Assembly: GCF_002240055.1 (NCBI RefSeq)
Contig: NZ_CP016753.1
Span: 1 to 64,000 of the forward strand
DNA from: Leptotrichia sp. oral taxon 498
GTDB taxonomy: Bacteria; Fusobacteriota; Fusobacteriia; Fusobacteriales; Leptotrichiaceae
Length of the DNA stretch: 64,000 nt
Direction of reading: 5' to 3'
Made by a program: the position numbers and the translations under genes
Part shown: piece after piece, positions 29,803 through 44,741 of the stretch
Position numbering within the stretch: position 1 is the stretch's first letter
Layout: each line of letters starts with the position of its first letter
The notes under the pieces: model-generated
What the model was told of the DNA's origin: nothing
Seen by the model: the letters and a program-made list of their open reading frames with translations, nothing else
Database searches by the model: none

Positions 29803-31512
29803 TTATAGCCTATTAGGTGTCAGATTACTAATCATATCTATAGCATCCTTTTCAGATATAGTTTTATTACTTTCTCCTTTTATTTTATCCTCAGAATATT
29901 TTACGTTTTTTACATTATTGTTTCCTTTCAGATTACTAATTATATCTATTCTATCTTCCTCAGGTATATCATAACTATAGGTTGTTGCTTTGTCTTCTTT
30001 TATTATTTCATCTTCAAAATGTTTTTTATTTTTTGCAGCACTACTTCTAGAAGTTAAAATACTGTCATTTTTTCCTTTTAAATTATCAGCTATGTTTATT
30101 CTGTCTTCTTCAGGCACACTGTTATAGGTATACGCTGCTGTTTTTACTTCTTTTATTTTTGGCTTATTCTTGATGCTTCCCAGTCTGTATCCTAATCTTA
30201 TGCCGAATGTATCAATTTTACTTTTAACTTTTATGGGATTAATTGTGTCTTTTGGCTGATATTTAAAATTTGCTCTTTCATAAAGAGCTTCTAGGGAAAT
30301 TGGACCTAACTCCGTACCTAATCCTCCTGCATAATAAAGTCCACCATGAAGATCCTTTTTATTAAAATTTTCTTCCTTTATCTCACCATATACATATCCT
30401 ACTCGTCCAACAGCGTAAAGCAGATTGTTTCCCTTATTATTTACCAAATTAATTTTTGTTGTAGCATAAGCAGGATAAGTTCTTAAAACGTGCTTTTGCT
30501 CTTTATCGTTAAAAAAAGGAGAAATATCAAGGAATCTTTGCTCTACCCCCAATCCTAGTTCAACAGCTCCCTGATTGTCAAATAAGTATTCCAAACCGAC
30601 AACAGGCATTCCTTTAACATCAAAATCAGATTTTGCAGACTGCCATTTATTATTTTTCATACCTGTTCCCAAGAATTGCTTTGGATGAACATTGTATCTA
30701 TCCTTGAAATTATATCCTGCATTTAATCTAAGTTCCCCGCCATTCCACTTTCTTTTCATAATTTTGTCTGTAGTGTACTGCATATCTCCTGTTTTAGCAA
30801 AAATATCTGTTCTGAAAGGATCAAAAGGTACAACATCATTTTTTTTCTTTGGTAAATTTTTTATATTTCCAATACTGTATCCTATTCTTACACCGACTGT
30901 ATTTATATTATCTTTGGTCTTTTTAAAATTATTTAGGGTACTTATGTTATTTCTGTTTATATTACCTAAATTTACTTTATCGTATCGTAAATTTGATCTT
31001 TCATATAAAGCTTCTACGGAAATTGGTCCAACTTGAGTACCTAAACCACCTGCATAATAAAGTCCACCACGAAAATTTTTATCTTTTAAATCTTCTTTAT
31101 TATCTTTTCCAGCTTTGGCATAAGCATATCCCCCTCTTCCAATAAGATAGAGTAAGTCATTTCCAGCTTTAGAAGTTATTAAATTATATTTACCTGTCAG
31201 ATACATCGGTGTTATTTCGTACATTCTCATTTCATTTTTATCTTTTAAGGCTGAAGATTTTACAGAAAATTTATGTTCCGCACCGATTCCCAATTCGAGT
31301 CTTCCCTGATTATCGAATAGCCACTCAATTCCCGCAACGGGTCCATTTTTAAATTTATAATCATAATTGGTGTTAGAAAGTCCTTTTTGATGTTTGGTTA
31401 AATCATTTTTATACGCTCTATCAAAATCCCAACCCCCATTTATTTTAACTTCCTGAGCCATTTCCGTAACTGTTGATAGCATCATTGCGCTTAAAATATG
31501 TAATTTTTTCAT
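29803..31512 (-). CDS. outer-membrane protein with two tandem beta-barrel domains and C-terminal repeats
   Basis: 569 residues with a signal peptide (first ~18). Residues ~20-225 and ~255-465 are two homologous barrel domains; both contain 'GxEWLFDNQG.xELG.G.E..F', 'GGLYYAGGLGT..GPIS.EALYER' and end with 'xGxRxGYxxGxIK'. Glycine and alternating aromatic residues fit outer-membrane strands. After residue ~470 there are three copies of the motif E(E/K)D(R/A)I(N/D)xxxNLxxN. I know no named family for the whole protein. The start follows AAGGAG. It could be an OmpA-like structural or adhesion protein. Confidence 0.75.
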   Translation of the reverse strand: MKKLHILSAMMLSTVTEMAQEVKINGGWDFDRAYKNDLTKHQKGLSNTNYDYKFKNGPVAGIEWLFDNQGRLELGIGAEHKFSVKSSALKDKNEMRMYEITPMYLTGKYNLITSKAGNDLLYLIGRGGYAYAKAGKDNKEDLKDKNFRGGLYYAGGLGTQVGPISVEALYERSNLRYDKVNLGNINRNNISTLNNFKKTKDNINTVGVRIGYSIGNIKNLPKKKNDVVPFDPFRTDIFAKTGDMQYTTDKIMKRKWNGGELRLNAGYNFKDRYNVHPKQFLGTGMKNNKWQSAKSDFDVKGMPVVGLEYLFDNQGAVELGLGVEQRFLDISPFFNDKEQKHVLRTYPAYATTKINLVNNKGNNLLYAVGRVGYVYGEIKEENFNKKDLHGGLYYAGGLGTELGPISLEALYERANFKYQPKDTINPIKVKSKIDTFGIRLGYRLGSIKNKPKIKEVKTAAYTYNSVPEEDRINIADNLKGKNDSILTSRSSAAKNKKHFEDEIIKEDKATTYSYDIPEEDRIDIISNLKGNNNVKNVKYSEDKIKGESNKTISEKDAIDMISNLTPNRL

Positions 31513-32046: not shown

Positions 32047-35000
32047 CTATTTCTGGTACAAACGCACATAATCAATCTCTGTAGTTTGAACTGGGAACGG
32101 AGAATGCTCAGAAGGTGGATTCAATGCCGGTTCCCATTCCACGTAGTCATTAATAATAAAATGCCATCTATCATTCTCAAATCCTTGTTTAACTAAAGCA
32201 GAAGGAATATTCAGCTTGCTAAAGTCTTCATCTGGCATGGTAGAAAGATAATTGCCATATTGGTCATACCTAGTATTATCAACTACACTGATACGTTGAG
32301 CATCCTTAATACGGTAATGAACCACAGGAATCAACCTTCCATCCATATAATAACGTACTTTTGTTCCATCAAACTCAATTGCCCAAACGTGCCATTCATG
32401 TGTCAGTGACGTAGTATGTCCACCAACAATATTTTCCAAACGGTGTGTAAAGCCACGCGGTGTCCATTCATGATTGACTTGGCTGTAATAACAGCTGATA
32501 TTAGTTGCAGGCCACGCATAACTAGGAGTACTTGAAAACCATTCCAAAATTAATAATGAACCATAAGGAGCATTTCCACCAGGAACTTTGCAGGCAGGTG
32601 TATCCACATCATTTCGCTGTTTCTGCATCCAAAGGGCCGTACGCATTCCTTGCAAGTGATTCCAATTCATTTTAGCTCGTATTTCTGCTCGGAACGGTTT
32701 AGAGGCATCTACAATATTGCCAGATTCTAGTCTACCACTTGAATACTGAGTAACTTTACCTGCAGGGCATACACCTGTAGTTGCATTTGCATCAGTTAAA
32801 GGATCGCCTTTTCTGTTAACACAATGACGTCGTGTAGTAAGTATTGCGTGATCACCATCTAAACTGATGCTGCTTGGCAAATAAGTCAAATGGCTACCCA
32901 AATGATTGATAATTCTTTTACTTACCCAGTCAGAAGGAATATTTCTGTCTTTAAATTCCCAACATTTTACACTCTTCCATTGTCCCGAAGCATCAGTTGC
33001 ACTATCACATCCATTTGTAAGTGGAGCTGGAGTAGGTGCTGGTGCCGGATGATTATTATTAATGAATCTTCGGATTACATCTACTGCTTTTTTTTCAGTG
33101 CCATCTGATTTCCAAATTCCAAAATAATTTTCAGGATCTGCTGCATCCAGTATATCAGGACGTCCATTATGATCAGTATCAATGTTCGCATCAGGAACGC
33201 CATCTCCATTTGTATCAATATTTACGTCAAGCCATCCATCGCCATTACTGTCCCTATCTAATATTCCCGAAGTAATGTAAGGCTTTCTGTCTTTTGCCTG
33301 ATAAAAAATAAGAGGCCCATATATATTTGATTTTTGATATTGATCTAAAATTTTACTTATCACATTAGCTTGTTTTGTTTCTTCAACACCTGGATAAGCA
33401 GCATCTATTCCCACTTCTGTTATCCATATTTTTTTATTTCCATCACCGTGTTCTGACATTATCTGATATAATGTTTTTTCTCCTCCTCCAGGTGCTACAA
33501 TGTCGCCTATCATGTTTGCCCAGCCATTATCTCGAAAAGTTCTGGCATAAATTCCGTAAGGATGGTGCGATAAACCATCGAAATAGCCTTTTGCCCCAGC
33601 TCTGTACATTCTTTCTAAAAATTCCATAGGTCCAACATATCCTGTTGAACTATTGCTGTTTCCTACCGTCATTCCACCTGCCATAACATTTACATCATTA
33701 TGAGCATCATGTGCTGCTGTATACGCTATTTTTAGTAAATCAGTATAATGTTCAGGATTCGGTCTAGGATTTTGAATCGTATCGTGCCAAAATTCTGGAT
33801 TCCCTGGTTCATTCCAAAATTCATAGTCAATTACTCCCTGTGAAGCGTATCTTTTTACCAATGCAGTTACAAAATTTGAAAAATCGTTATCATACTGCTG
33901 AAGTGGCGCAAATGATGCTACCCAGATTTTTCTTGCATTTAACGCATTTTTTTCAGCAGCTGAAAGTTTGTCTGCTCCTGTTGCCCATTCGGGAGCACCG
34001 CTTATTTGCATTAAGACTTTCAAGTTATATTTTTTGGCAAGAGCAACAGCATCATCTATATCCTGCCAGTCGTATCTTCCATTTTTTGAAGACTGGATTC
34101 TATGCCACGAAGCTGTAATTCTTACCCACTGAAATCCTACTCCTGCTATTTTGGAATAAGAGTCTTCGGCTTCTCTAAGATTACTTCTCCAAAATGGATT
34201 GACAGGCTGTATTCCAATTCCCTTCACATTATGAATTTTTGTATCATCTTTTTTTTGTTTTTTAGGATTAGAATTATCATCTTTGCCATCATCATTTCTA
34301 CCGTTTTGATGTCCAGGGTTTCCATCTTTGCCACCACCTTTGTGATGCCCGATTCCACCAGCAATCGCTCCGACAGCAGAAGCTCCTGCCACTCCGCCAA
34401 TAATAGGCCCTACAGGAACTTTTCCTCCTATGTTGCCTCCTAATGATCCTATATTTACTTTTGGCTGCGCGATATTGCCAATAATATTGCTGTTTTTTTC
34501 TGTTGTATCTGTACAGTTTAATATTACTGCATCATAATTTTCTAAATTATCTGAAAAAACTTCATTTCCATCAATAACTTTAACTATATTTGAACATTTT
34601 AATGTGATTTCAGTTGTATTTACTGTTCCACTATTTATCGTTGTTTCCTTTTTTAGAAGATTTTCAGATATACCTGAACACTTTAAAACTATGTTATTTG
34701 TTACTGTATTTGAACATTTCAATTGTACCGCATTGGCACTTTCAATTTGAGATAATTCATCTATTTTAATTATTCTAACTATATTTGAACATTTTAAAAG
34801 CTTTTCAGCTGTATTTACATCTTTTGTCAGTTCATCTTCCGTGCTTTCACTTGTATTTAAACATTTCAGCAATATATTTTGAGAACTTATTTTATTTGTT
34901 CCAATAATATTTTCACTGCCAGTTTCAGAATTTATACATTTTAAAAATATATTATTGCCGTTATTTTCAGTTATTCCAGTTCCTTGTGCATTTTCCCCCG

Positions 35001-35139
35001 CCATATTTGAACATTTTAACAATATATCATTATTTGATTTTATTTCACTTACTGAAAAAGACACATTGCCTGTATTTTCAGCCATTATCGAAAAACTCAT
35101 AAAAATTAAGAGTAACCCCCTAACTATAAATTTTACCAT
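32047..35139 (-). CDS. large exported glycoside hydrolase: Cys-repeat region + GH39-like (PslG-type) + GH16-like domain
   Basis: 1030 residues. A signal peptide (1-20) is followed by eight LKC-type repeats (39-210), a Gly-rich segment (~230-265) and a charged low-complexity linker. A clan-A barrel follows (~305-620) with the acid/base Glu444 in 'FWNEPGNPEFW' and nucleophile Glu575 in 'IWITEVG', resembling GH39/PslG enzymes. Next come EF-hand or thrombospondin-3-like Ca sites ('DSNGDG', 'DTNGDG', 'DTDHNG', 628-660) and a Pro/Ala linker. The C-terminal GH16-like jellyroll (~720-1030) shows 'YSSGRLESGNI', 'WAIEFDGTKVRYYMDG' and 'EIDYVRLYQ', but the usual ExDxxE is SLLILE (861-866). It probably cuts or binds an exopolysaccharide at the cell surface. 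Confidence 0.85.
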   Translation of the reverse strand: MVKFIVRGLLLIFMSFSIMAENTGNVSFSVSEIKSNNDILLKCSNMAGENAQGTGITENNGNNIFLKCINSETGSENIIGTNKISSQNILLKCLNTSESTEDELTKDVNTAEKLLKCSNIVRIIKIDELSQIESANAVQLKCSNTVTNNIVLKCSGISENLLKKETTINSGTVNTTEITLKCSNIVKVIDGNEVFSDNLENYDAVILNCTDTTEKNSNIIGNIAQPKVNIGSLGGNIGGKVPVGPIIGGVAGASAVGAIAGGIGHHKGGGKDGNPGHQNGRNDDGKDDNSNPKKQKKDDTKIHNVKGIGIQPVNPFWRSNLREAEDSYSKIAGVGFQWVRITASWHRIQSSKNGRYDWQDIDDAVALAKKYNLKVLMQISGAPEWATGADKLSAAEKNALNARKIWVASFAPLQQYDNDFSNFVTALVKRYASQGVIDYEFWNEPGNPEFWHDTIQNPRPNPEHYTDLLKIAYTAAHDAHNDVNVMAGGMTVGNSNSSTGYVGPMEFLERMYRAGAKGYFDGLSHHPYGIYARTFRDNGWANMIGDIVAPGGGEKTLYQIMSEHGDGNKKIWITEVGIDAAYPGVEETKQANVISKILDQYQKSNIYGPLIFYQAKDRKPYITSGILDRDSNGDGWLDVNIDTNGDGVPDANIDTDHNGRPDILDAADPENYFGIWKSDGTEKKAVDVIRRFINNNHPAPAPTPAPLTNGCDSATDASGQWKSVKCWEFKDRNIPSDWVSKRIINHLGSHLTYLPSSISLDGDHAILTTRRHCVNRKGDPLTDANATTGVCPAGKVTQYSSGRLESGNIVDASKPFRAEIRAKMNWNHLQGMRTALWMQKQRNDVDTPACKVPGGNAPYGSLLILEWFSSTPSYAWPATNISCYYSQVNHEWTPRGFTHRLENIVGGHTTSLTHEWHVWAIEFDGTKVRYYMDGRLIPVVHYRIKDAQRISVVDNTRYDQYGNYLSTMPDEDFSKLNIPSALVKQGFENDRWHFIINDYVEWEPALNPPSEHSPFPVQTTEIDYVRLYQK
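34510..35025 (-). repeat. eight LKC(S/L)N-type cysteine repeats, ~25-residue period
   Basis: Within the glycoside hydrolase N-terminus the core (I/V)xLKC(S/I/L)N recurs with Cys at residues 43, 68, 93, 117, 142, 154, 182 and 209. Five of the seven spacings are 24-28; one is 12 and one 28 around a short extra unit. Each core is followed by a polar Thr/Asn/Glu-rich segment. I do not recognise the repeat. The regular cysteines could form disulfides, a covalent ladder or attachment sites. Confidence 0.75.
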
Positions 35140-35237
35140 TTTGTATCTCCCTTTTCTAATTAACGTTTCAACTTTATCTTTTGTGTTTTTATAAATTTTA
35201 ACGTATTATAAAAAACTATTTTTTTGAATGAATCAAA

Positions 35238-37685
35238 TTATTCTTCTTTTTCAAAATCTTTTTCATATTGAACTCCGTCATAATCTAATGTTGCTGTGTG
35301 CTTTTTACCATTTTTAGACCATTTTACTGGCACATCTATCGCTTTTTTATGAACATTTATTTTTACAGTCGACGGCAAATTTTCTCCATTTTCCGGAAAA
35401 TAAATGTTGTCCGCTGCACGAGTCAGCATCTCTTTTGTACTCTCAGACGACACTGACTTATTAAAGTTTTTCTCAGCCGTGTCAGTTCCAGCTTTGGCTT
35501 TTGCATTAATTGCAACTTCTTGAGTTTTTCCACCGTAAAATGATTTGTTGACTTTTCCAGTAACTGACATAAGTGCTGAATTCGAAGATTTCCATTTTAT
35601 CGAAACAGGCACTCCATTTGAAGCTGTCATCGCTTTCGGTAAAACTGCTCTTCCATTTTCTTCATTAAAGGATAATTTATTTATAACTTCCTGCACTGCC
35701 GCCACATTTTTAGGATCTGATTTATTTTGCTCAAATCCGCCATTATTCAATTCATATTGCATTTGAATATTTCCATAATTTTCAAGCACTCTATTTCTTA
35801 TGTCATATGTTGCTTCTTTAGAAGAAATTATTGTTTTTCCCTGATAAGTCACAACATTTCCATTTAATCTTATCTTTTTGTCCTTTAAATAAATAATTGC
35901 TTTGTCAGCACTTGTATTAATCGTTTTAAACTGTGGCAATGTACTTACAATTTTAACATTGTTTCTAGCATAACCCTCCTGTTTATTCATATCCATATAC
36001 AAGTAATTTGAAGTCATTTTGGTACTATTTTTAAAGTCAACCATTACTTTGTCTCTTGCAAGAATCAAGTTTCTTAGTGAATCCATTTCATTATACTGTG
36101 AATCAAGCGTAATATCCTTGTAAGTCATATGAACATTTTGTTTAATTTCAGTACGGGTGATACTCATATTATTTCCTTTTTTATGTTTAACAAAATAAAC
36201 TTTTGCAGTATTTCCTCTAAAATGTACAGCTTCCGATTCCACAAGCGGTCTTGGATCATTTGCCAAATCTTTTACATTTCCACGAATTTTCCCAGTTACA
36301 TGTCCATCAAATCTAAATTCTTTTTTCTCAAAACTTCCTTGACCTTTATCCGCTGAAATTCTATCCCCTTGAACACTTGTCATAACCATTTTATTTGCGT
36401 AAATGTCTTTAGAAATTGTATTCATCGTACCATTTTCTCCATGTACCGTAAAATTTTGTTTTCTCACGTTAAAAGGTCCGTTCATCGTCGCGTCTCCAGT
36501 GGCAAAGCTATACACAAGTCCTGTTCCATCCATTTTATAGTCATCATAATTAACTGTATAATAATCGTTTGTTGTCATAGTTCGTGCTTTCAAATTATAA
36601 ACTCCGCTTCTGTAAGTTCCTGTCGTCTTTCGTGGCAAATAATTATAAGTTCCATTTCCATCACCATTTATTATTTGGGCAACTTTGTCATAAAAGACAT
36701 GGTCTCCGGTAATTATCATTGTTTTTCCAGTATAAACGACATGTCCTCTTCCATCAACTTGCTTTTTATCGACAAGATATACTGCACTATCCGCTGTAAC
36801 GACGCTTTCTTTTCCTATATAAACGACATGTCCATTTCCATTAATTTGTTTTTTCTTGATAAAATACACAGCTGTATCTGCTTTAACAACACTTTCTTTT
36901 CCAGTATAAACAACGTTTCCAAAGCCTTCTACTCTTTCGTTCTCGTCGTCTTTCATATAATAATCCGCCTTTTGAGCATCCAATTTGTTTTCAGGATCTT
37001 TATAATGTACATTTCCTTCTGCATTTCCTATTTGGTTAATCTGATCATATCGCATTTTATCCGCAGTCAGCGTTCTTTTAGTCTTTTCTTCTGTATAGAC
37101 AACATGCCCCTCTGCAATACTTACTTTTGTTGGATCGTTATAAGTCATTTTGTCTGTTGTTATTTTCTTTTTATCTTTGTTGTTTATATAACTCACATGT
37201 CCTGTCGCAACTATATCTTGAAAAGTTGTCGTCGTTTCGACTTTATCCGATTCAGAAACGGTTTTATCAACATTGTTTACAAGTTTTGTCCGAACTGGAG
37301 AAATTAACTTATCACCTTGTTTTTTATAATCTGCCCTCTCGGTATAGATTTCCCATTTTTTATCTTTTGTCGCTCCCACAACTTTTCCTTTCAAAATTGC
37401 ATCGTAAGTTTTTGTATTTACTTCCCCTTCTTTTCCAGAAATAAGCATTTTTTTCTTAACCAAATCAATTATAACTTTTTTAAATCTTACAACTTCATCA
37501 CCCTCAGAACCAATTTGTTCATCGGCATAAACTATCACTTCATCTTTTAGTCTATACACAACTTTTTTAGCTTTCATATCTTTTTGCATCTGATCTAATG
37601 GCGCTGGAATTTTTTTAAAAAACACGGTATATATAAAGTATATCAATATTAAAAGCAATACTCCATAAATTATTTTTTTCCACAT
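35238..37685 (-). CDS. LptC/LptA-like (OstA-type) periplasmic LPS transport protein with Ig-like C-terminus
   Basis: 815 residues. A single N-terminal membrane helix (~5-24) anchors a long periplasmic part made of OstA/LptA-type beta-strand repeats ('xADKMxYDxxxxxGxAEGxVxYxD', '..VVYTGKESVVKADTAVYF..'), including near-identical units at ~265-335. A C-terminal part (~690-760) resembles an atrophied bacterial Ig-like domain. This could bridge the LptBFG transporter to the outer membrane as a fused LptC plus LptA array. It is much longer than E. coli LptA (about 185) or LptC (about 190). It lies 9 bp after mutS. Confidence 0.75.
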   Translation of the reverse strand: MWKKIIYGVLLLILIYFIYTVFFKKIPAPLDQMQKDMKAKKVVYRLKDEVIVYADEQIGSEGDEVVRFKKVIIDLVKKKMLISGKEGEVNTKTYDAILKGKVVGATKDKKWEIYTERADYKKQGDKLISPVRTKLVNNVDKTVSESDKVETTTTFQDIVATGHVSYINNKDKKKITTDKMTYNDPTKVSIAEGHVVYTEEKTKRTLTADKMRYDQINQIGNAEGNVHYKDPENKLDAQKADYYMKDDENERVEGFGNVVYTGKESVVKADTAVYFIKKKQINGNGHVVYIGKESVVTADSAVYLVDKKQVDGRGHVVYTGKTMIITGDHVFYDKVAQIINGDGNGTYNYLPRKTTGTYRSGVYNLKARTMTTNDYYTVNYDDYKMDGTGLVYSFATGDATMNGPFNVRKQNFTVHGENGTMNTISKDIYANKMVMTSVQGDRISADKGQGSFEKKEFRFDGHVTGKIRGNVKDLANDPRPLVESEAVHFRGNTAKVYFVKHKKGNNMSITRTEIKQNVHMTYKDITLDSQYNEMDSLRNLILARDKVMVDFKNSTKMTSNYLYMDMNKQEGYARNNVKIVSTLPQFKTINTSADKAIIYLKDKKIRLNGNVVTYQGKTIISSKEATYDIRNRVLENYGNIQMQYELNNGGFEQNKSDPKNVAAVQEVINKLSFNEENGRAVLPKAMTASNGVPVSIKWKSSNSALMSVTGKVNKSFYGGKTQEVAINAKAKAGTDTAEKNFNKSVSSESTKEMLTRAADNIYFPENGENLPSTVKINVHKKAIDVPVKWSKNGKKHTATLDYDGVQYEKDFEKEE

Positions 37686-42996: not shown

Positions 42997-43749
42997 TTAT
43001 TTTGCTTTTTTAATATAATCTAAATTTTCTTTTAGACTTTTTTGTAATTCCAAGTTATCTGAATAATCGCTTGATTTTTTAATCAATTCCAAGCCTTTTT
43101 CCAACCATTTTTTAGCATTTTCATAATCATCTAGCGCAATGTAATCTTCAGCTAAATTGTTGTACGCCCACAAATTTCCTTTTTTTATAGAAGCTAAATA
43201 CCATTTCATAGCTTCCTTCTGATTTCCTTCATCATCAAAATTCAATCCTAATTGATTTTCTGCAGAACCACCCTCATCAACTTTGACAGCTTTTAAGAAC
43301 CATTCTTTTGCATTCTTATAATCTTCCAAATATGAATACGCAAGCCCCATCCAATAATAATTATCAGGGGCATCTGCTACTTTTGCATATTCTTTATAAT
43401 ATTTTATTGCTTTTTCATAATCTTCCAACTCAATATAAACATATGCCAAATTTGAAACTGCAACTAAACTTCCTTTATCAACCGCTTTTAAATACCACTT
43501 TTCAGCTTCCTTATAATTTTCCTCATTGTCATACAAAGTGCCTAATATATTTAAATACCCAGCATCATCTGGAAACTCATTCAAATATTTTACAATTAAA
43601 CTTTTTTCAGTTTTTGTATCTTTCTTTTCATACGCTTTATTTATTTGATTTTCCAGTTTTTCTTTTTCTGATTTTGTCATTGCCGAAAATCCTTGAACTC
43701 CTAAACCTAAATTTATAGCTATTAACAATAAAATAAAATATTTTTTCAT
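42997..43749 (-). CDS. exported TPR (Sel1-like) protein
   Basis: 250 residues with a signal peptide (KKYFILLLIAINLGLGVQGFSA) and five to six tetratricopeptide units of 34-36 residues ('AEKWYLKAVDKGSLVAVSNLAYVYIELEDYEKAIKYYKEYAK'-type cores; key residues W/Y, A, L, Y). It resembles Sel1/TPR proteins that serve as periplasmic or envelope scaffolds. The neighbour at 43950-44741 is a paralogue. No specific partner can be named. Confidence 0.8.
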   Translation of the reverse strand: MKKYFILLLIAINLGLGVQGFSAMTKSEKEKLENQINKAYEKKDTKTEKSLIVKYLNEFPDDAGYLNILGTLYDNEENYKEAEKWYLKAVDKGSLVAVSNLAYVYIELEDYEKAIKYYKEYAKVADAPDNYYWMGLAYSYLEDYKNAKEWFLKAVKVDEGGSAENQLGLNFDDEGNQKEAMKWYLASIKKGNLWAYNNLAEDYIALDDYENAKKWLEKGLELIKKSSDYSDNLELQKSLKENLDYIKKAK

Positions 43750-43949
43750 ACTAAATGTTTCCTTTCCTGTAATTTAATTTATTCTATAAAATAAATTTTT
43801 ATCTCACATAATATTTTTTATTTTTATAAACGAAATAAAATATTGGGGGATAAATAAAAAATATTAGAATTAAAAATTTATCCCTAAAATTTCTAATTTT
43901 TTTGATTTTAAAATTTTTTCTAATTTTATAAATATCAATCAGAACAAAT

Positions 43950-44741
43950 TTAATTATTTTTAACACTCTTAATCATTTCCTGTATCTCTTTTACCTGCTC
44001 TGTATTTTTTTCTTTTTTCGCTGTTTCAAGAGCTTTTGTCGTCCATTTTAAAGCTTTTTCTTTATCTCCCAGCATCTGATAAAGAAAACCTAAATTTGCT
44101 TGGCCTCCTGAATTTCCTTTACTTGCTGATTTTAAAAACCACTTTTGAGCTTCTTTTTGATTTCCTTCATCGATATAAATCTGCCCCAAAATATTTTCTG
44201 AAAGACCGTCCTCATCATAAATATACGATTTCAAAAGATTTTTTTTAGCTTCTTCAATATTGTCTTCCTTATAATTTAAAATGCCTAAGATATAGTCTTT
44301 TAAGCCTTTCTGATTGTCAAGAATTTCATTAAAATCTTTATCATCAACTTGTTTTAGCCATTTTAACGCATTTTTAGTATCTTCAGCTCCCAAATATATT
44401 AATCCGATTATCAGTTTCACATCCTGTTTTTTCCCATTTTCATCAAAAAATGGATATTTTTTCTGCAATTCCACAGCTTCATTAAACTCTTTTTCAGCTT
44501 CACTATTCCTTTCCATATCAATATAAATCATTCCTAACACTATTTTTAGAAAAACCGATTTCTCAGGATTTTCCAAAATTGATTTTTTTAATATTGATAT
44601 AGCCTTCTCATTATTTCCTCTTTCAAGTTCTTTTGTTACTTCAGCCTCTATCTTATCTAACACCTTCGAATTTGCAGAAAAATTTTGTGCTCCAAAAGTT
44701 AAATTTGATAAAATTATCAAAAGAATTAATATTTTTTTCAT
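43950..44741 (-). CDS. exported TPR protein, paralogue of the next gene
   Basis: 263 residues with a signal peptide (KKILILLIILSNLTFGAQNFSA) and repeated TPR cores such as 'AEKEFNEAVELQ', 'ALKWLKQVDDK', 'AQKWFLKSASKGNSGGQANLGFLYQMLGD'. It shares layout and the 'GxQxFSA' cleavage region with the 42997-43749 protein, which suggests tandem duplication. It is 200 bp upstream of that gene. The 200-bp gap is very AT-rich with no clear element. Confidence 0.8.
   Translation of the reverse strand: MKKILILLIILSNLTFGAQNFSANSKVLDKIEAEVTKELERGNNEKAISILKKSILENPEKSVFLKIVLGMIYIDMERNSEAEKEFNEAVELQKKYPFFDENGKKQDVKLIIGLIYLGAEDTKNALKWLKQVDDKDFNEILDNQKGLKDYILGILNYKEDNIEEAKKNLLKSYIYDEDGLSENILGQIYIDEGNQKEAQKWFLKSASKGNSGGQANLGFLYQMLGDKEKALKWTTKALETAKKEKNTEQVKEIQEMIKSVKNN

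Follow-up and report, generated by a model that had tools for sequence, protein, structure and literature searches.

PslG of Pseudomonas aeruginosa (GH39; PDB 5bx9, 4zn2, 9g17) is a retaining endo-beta-glucosidase/glucanase (PMC11912335). GH16 laminarinases, such as the T. maritima enzyme (3azx/3b01) and ZgLamA, adopt a jelly-roll fold, and crystal structures with ligands exist for laboratory laminarinase mutants in which Glu was changed to Ser (ZgLamA E269S, SCLam E144S). Rv0315 of Mycobacterium tuberculosis, a single-domain protein, has the GH16 fold without glucanase activity and was reported not to bind glucan (PMC4606783).

The Leptotrichia hydrolase analysed here has parts in common with each of these proteins. 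With PslG it shares the barrel fold and the catalytic Glu pair, and it is likely a retaining endo-beta-glycanase as well. However, the identity in the fold alignment is about 17%, PslG has neither a Cys stalk nor a Ca-type insertion nor a GH16-like domain, and PslG, unlike the Leptotrichia hydrolase, is encoded inside the Psl biosynthesis cluster. With the laminarinases the C-terminal domain shares the jelly roll, the C-terminal DYVRLY strand and the position of the acid/base Glu, but additional insertions are present, and six Cys between residues 711 and 883 are invariant. Rv0315 differs in that it retains both catalytic Glu and is inactive from another cause, an open groove (PMC4606783).

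A PslG-like barrel and a GH16 domain in one chain are not unique to Leptotrichia, because an IMG/VR protein of 1515 aa (L068) contains both in the matching relative order. However, the GH16 motif of that protein is intact (EIDIME), an SGNH domain is added, the Cys stalk is absent, and the gene lies on a viral contig rather than in Leptotrichia. The whole arrangement at L068:2612-7156, in which an SGNH-lipase domain is combined with a PslG-like barrel and an intact-motif GH16, is possibly that of a phage depolymerase. The titles and abstracts found in literature searches revealed no described Leptotrichia enzyme with the architecture reported here, and a GH39+GH16+TSP3 protein was not evident in the papers searched. 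The Leptotrichia hydrolase combines known parts in a way that is unusual but can be understood.

The hydrolase gene, its N-terminus and its distribution

The window, i.e. the whole stretch of 64,000 nucleotides of Leptotrichia DNA that was analysed, contains an ORF of 1030 aa at 32047-35139. The original prediction had described it as a single 1030-residue chain. The ORF list and the translation verified the ORF and corrected its strand to minus, with the ATG at 35139 and the stop codon at 32047-32049; a plus-strand reading of the same interval was ruled out by stop codons throughout. The following features were assigned to the gene and its partner:

32047-35139, minus strand: entire hydrolase gene, 1030 aa (ORF list, translation, full-length homologues in nine further genomes)
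35080-35139, minus strand: signal peptide, residues 1-20, with the boundary SFSIMA/EN (sequence reading, hydrophobicity peak, kept in homologues)
34495-35079, minus strand: Cys-motif repeat region, residues 21-215 (alignment, motif count; without Pfam family)
34249-34464, minus strand: Gly-rich hydrophobic segment (about 241-264, glycine-zipper-like) and charged linker, residues 226-297 (hydropathy scan, alignment)
33040-34248, minus strand: clan-A (beta/alpha)8 barrel, PslG/GH39-like, residues 298-700 including an insertion (Pfam Cellulase, PslG PDB matches, AF2/Foldseek, distant homologues)
33808-33810, minus strand: E444, predicted acid/base, in WNEP (alignments with distant homologues)
33415-33417, minus strand: E575, predicted nucleophile, in TEVG (alignments with distant homologues)
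33145-33258, minus strand: Asp/Gly-rich thrombospondin-type-3-like repeats, residues 628-665 (gap in 19 of 19 viral-contig homologues, strong conservation)
32050-32982, minus strand: GH16/laminarinase-fold domain, residues 720-1030 (profile comparisons, AF2, Foldseek)
32542-32562, minus strand: degenerate GH16 motif G-S-L-L-I-L-E, residues 860-866, replacing G-E-x-D-x-x-E (hhalign and MAFFT against true GH16s)
29803-31512, minus strand: partner gene, double outer-membrane beta-barrel protein (OMP), 569 aa, whose tail has three EEDRIDI-type repeats (two OMP_b-brl matches, internal duplication)

Full-length hydrolase homologues were present in 10 of 33 Leptotrichiaceae genomes, namely in 9 of 13 genomes of Leptotrichia and in one genome of a second genus. 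The domain order was identical in all of them, and its recurrence in other Leptotrichiaceae, which had been proposed as support for a conserved system, was thereby observed. The hydrolase is a single-copy protein in the carriers, the barrel and the GH16-fold domain never occurred apart within the Fusobacteriota searched, and neither domain was found in the remainder of the 98 Fusobacteriota genomes. The closest named record belongs to Leptotrichia hongkongensis JMUB5056 (85%). Whole-protein relatives were found neither among 50,697 phage records nor, by peptide patterns, in IMG/VR, and a DNA-pattern scan of viral contigs for WNEP yielded distant barrels only. A promoter scan near the hydrolase and OMP genes gave sites no more numerous than in shuffles.

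Within 32047-35180, the hydrolase gene is 96.6% identical at the DNA level to the copy in genome G015 over its whole length and with sharp ends, whereas the adjoining OMP gene has a DNA identity of 81.6% to that of G015; its product is 97% identical to that of G011. Therefore, the hydrolase gene has probably been exchanged between Leptotrichia species by itself, and recently.

The N-terminal region following the signal peptide contains eight Cys (43, 68, 93, 117, 142, 154, 182, 209), mostly spaced by 24-29 residues and embedded in eight [LM][KNE]C.[NDG] motifs (I-x-LKCSN type), compared with 0.05 motifs expected in shuffles. None of the eight Cys varies among 10 homologues, so that the predicted Cys-repeat region is real, while the rest of the region is among the most variable parts of the protein (dN/dS mostly 0.3-0.5). 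A Pfam family, a further copy in the genomes searched and convincing relatives were not found. Together with the Gly-rich segment, the repeats would form a disulfide-stiffened stalk or a membrane-proximal attachment, and disulfide bonds among the stalk Cys are presumed. As to surface anchoring, a signal peptide and a Gly-rich hydrophobic segment are present, and no recognised anchoring module was detected: neither a visible lipobox nor a sorting, autotransporter or other known anchor domain. The secretion route and the surface location of the hydrolase are thus putative.

The predicted catalytic barrel and its Asp/Gly-rich loop

The barrel scored above the cut-off of Pfam Cellulase (PF00150) in every family member, and GH42 was marginal. 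Because Pfam GH39 (PF01229) reached 14.3 bits for the window barrel, below the curated cut-off of 26, and PF00150 passed instead, we filed the barrel as GH39-like rather than as a confirmed GH39 member. PslG was the best PDB sequence match. The AF2 model, whose underlying alignment, as in the other structure predictions, used viral-contig homologues, had a mean pLDDT of 52.7 and was confident in the core only (blocks of pLDDT 70-95). A Foldseek search with this model placed PslG at ranks 1-3 (E=1.8e-14), with GH39 enzymes at most of the following ranks and other clan-A enzymes also among the matches. The PslG/GH39-like barrel of the original prediction was thus recovered, with GH39 enzymes as the nearest folds of a model that is confident in its core only.

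Both catalytic Glu residues lie exactly where they had been predicted, E444 in WNEP after beta4 and E575 after beta7. Together with WNEP and one His they are invariant in 18 divergent sequences, most of which are just 19-29% identical to the query. By position, E444 matches the acid/base Glu165 of PslG and E575 the nucleophile Glu276. The dN/dS of the barrel is about 0.1. Catalysis by the barrel is very likely. The substrate class is uncertain, because Pfam GH39 stayed below its cut-off and similarity of the barrel extends to several clan-A families; by analogy with PslG, an exopolysaccharide would be a plausible substrate.

Asp-rich Ca repeats had been proposed as a separate module between the domains. 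The repeats are indeed present at residues 628-665, but they lie within the barrel. In the alignment with 19 viral-contig barrels, they appeared (from DRDSNGDGWLDVNIDTNGDGVPDANID on) as inserted residues that follow strand 8 (LIFYQAKD) and precede a conserved segment, FGIWKSDGTEKKA. According to this placement, the Ca-type repeats are inserted into the beta8-alpha8 loop on the catalytic face of the barrel, and not into an inter-domain linker. They are nearly unchanged across the family (dN/dS 0-0.1). A DxDxNGDG pattern is visible by eye; because the TSP_3 Pfam model scored 9.3 bits versus a cut-off of 25, calcium binding by these residues is presumptive. The probable role of the loop is to stabilise the substrate cleft or to give it its shape.

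The C-terminal GH16-fold domain

The similarity of the C-terminal domain to GH16 was assessed in profile comparisons. Pfam PF00722 gave 16.4 bits for the window domain versus a cut-off of 22, with a best E-value of 0.00089, and hhalign against shallow profiles of true Leptotrichia GH16s gave E=0.0027 with a probability of just 11%. The AF2 model (mean pLDDT 65.6, pTM 0.73) matched the T. maritima laminarinase 3b01 in Foldseek with E=1.5e-14 and a TM score of 0.77 by target length, as expected for the predicted laminarinase-like jelly roll. Because the alignment given to AF2 contained GH16 homologues, the result supports rather than proves a laminarinase jelly-roll fold for residues 720-1030.

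The catalytic motif of GH16 is degenerate. In 10 of 10 members ExDxxE is replaced by S-L-L-I-L-E, such that the nucleophile is changed to Ser and the Asp to Leu, and the acid/base Glu alone is kept. Another GH16 gene of the same genome (G000 C1:755446-756054, L035), which served as positive control, contained the motif GEIDIFE. This separate GH16 protein with an intact motif was present in 13 of 13 Leptotrichia genomes searched. Relatives of the C-terminal domain were not found on plasmids.

Despite the lost motif, purifying selection on the domain is strong, with dN/dS of 0.07-0.12 in most pairs, which argues that it is kept for a job in which the GH16 nucleophile is dispensable. Most likely, and as the most economical reading, it would be a non-catalytic glycan binder.

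The outer-membrane partner and the proposed role of the pair

The OMP consists of two tandem barrels that are 42% identical to each other. In the window gene and its relatives (L037-L045), the protein is without Cys and ends in a tail of EEDRIDI-type repeats, three in most members. Its gene adjoins the hydrolase gene in 10 of 10 carriers, while the double form is missing from the 23 non-carriers, in which all matches were to paralogues and were shorter or partial. By a naive calculation, two identical 10-of-33 distributions would arise by chance with a probability of 1e-8, although related genomes are not independent. The pair occurs in at least four chromosomal contexts and in both gene orders: usually the OMP gene comes first with a gap of roughly 70-140 bp, whereas in the window the hydrolase gene is first and the gap is 534 bp. 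A link that survives relocation and order reversal is the best evidence that the two genes form a functional pair, and the co-inherited OMP is likely a docking or assembly partner of the hydrolase.

Two further observations concern the surroundings. The region 35238-37685 encodes one 815-aa protein that matches the LptC and LptA/OstA families and has an aBig_2 domain at its end, as might be expected if LptC and LptA were fused into one periplasmic bridge protein. The region 42997-44741 encodes two proteins in succession that resemble each other in layout; both start like signal peptides and have repeats that look like TPR/Sel1 by eye.

The neighbourhood of LPS transport genes, to which the original prediction had drawn attention, could mean that a surface glycan is trimmed by the hydrolase while LPS is transported, and that the gene lies in the lpt operon for this reason. 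In the window as well as in G011 it is indeed situated between the LptC/LptA-like gene and lptB. However, in the remaining eight carriers it is located elsewhere, and in G013, which is collinear on both sides, lptA and lptB are about 150 bp apart with neither the hydrolase nor the OMP gene between them. We therefore regard the neighbourhood as incidental; synteny led us to reject a functional link, and a role in envelope biogenesis is very improbable. A true two-enzyme protein, as originally predicted, would require that the C-terminal domain hydrolyses via another nucleophile or mechanism, so that two activities act on one polymer. The GH16 fold, the retained acid/base Glu and the purifying selection would all fit this reading, as would the viral-contig protein in which a GH16 domain with an intact motif accompanies a similar barrel. 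Yet the nucleophile and the Asp are lost in all 10 homologues, and the same Glu-to-Ser change serves in the solved laminarinase mutants that were crystallised with ligands. Because of this loss we reject the two-enzyme reading, to which we assign little probability; the hydrolase would rather comprise one enzyme and one pseudo-enzyme, with a GH16-type second activity being unlikely.

More weight, though still that of a minority view, is given to a nutritional or predatory glycanase that acts not on the cell's own matrix but on foreign polymers such as dietary or fungal beta-glucan, the plaque EPS of neighbours or host mucin glycans. The best fold matches of the C-terminal domain are beta-1,3-glucanases, mucin O-glycanase GH16s are also among the matches, and in the carriers, where the contexts differ, the gene is not linked to a cluster for exopolysaccharide biosynthesis. 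On the other hand, no sugar importer travels with the hydrolase-OMP pair in the carriers, and the fold matches do not fix the substrate.

On balance, and by a small step beyond an even chance, we favour a secreted, envelope-associated endo-beta-glycanase with one active site, a pseudo-GH16 glycan binder, a stalk, a Ca-type loop and an OMP partner. In this enzyme, the PslG/GH39-like barrel would cleave a beta-linked extracellular polysaccharide, most likely of the glucan type, by a retaining mechanism in which E444 acts as acid/base and E575 is the nucleophile. The pseudo-GH16 domain, devoid of nucleophile and Asp, would bind glycan and hold the enzyme on the polymer, and the double-barrel OMP would be the likely site of docking or assembly. 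A more detailed proposal, which we advance tentatively and consider rather unlikely as a whole, is a dedicated two-gene outer-surface system of Leptotrichia in which the OMP docks a disulfide-ladder stalk and the Glu-to-Ser pseudo-GH16 domain, as a built-in substrate trap, feeds polymer to a PslG-like barrel whose active-site rim includes a Ca-type loop.

The hydrolase offers a natural counterpart to the laboratory Glu-to-Ser GH16 mutants that capture substrate. It would represent an unusually built enzyme from an abundant oral genus that degrades matrix or glycans, and its conserved OMP partner would hint at how surface enzymes are docked in Fusobacteriota.
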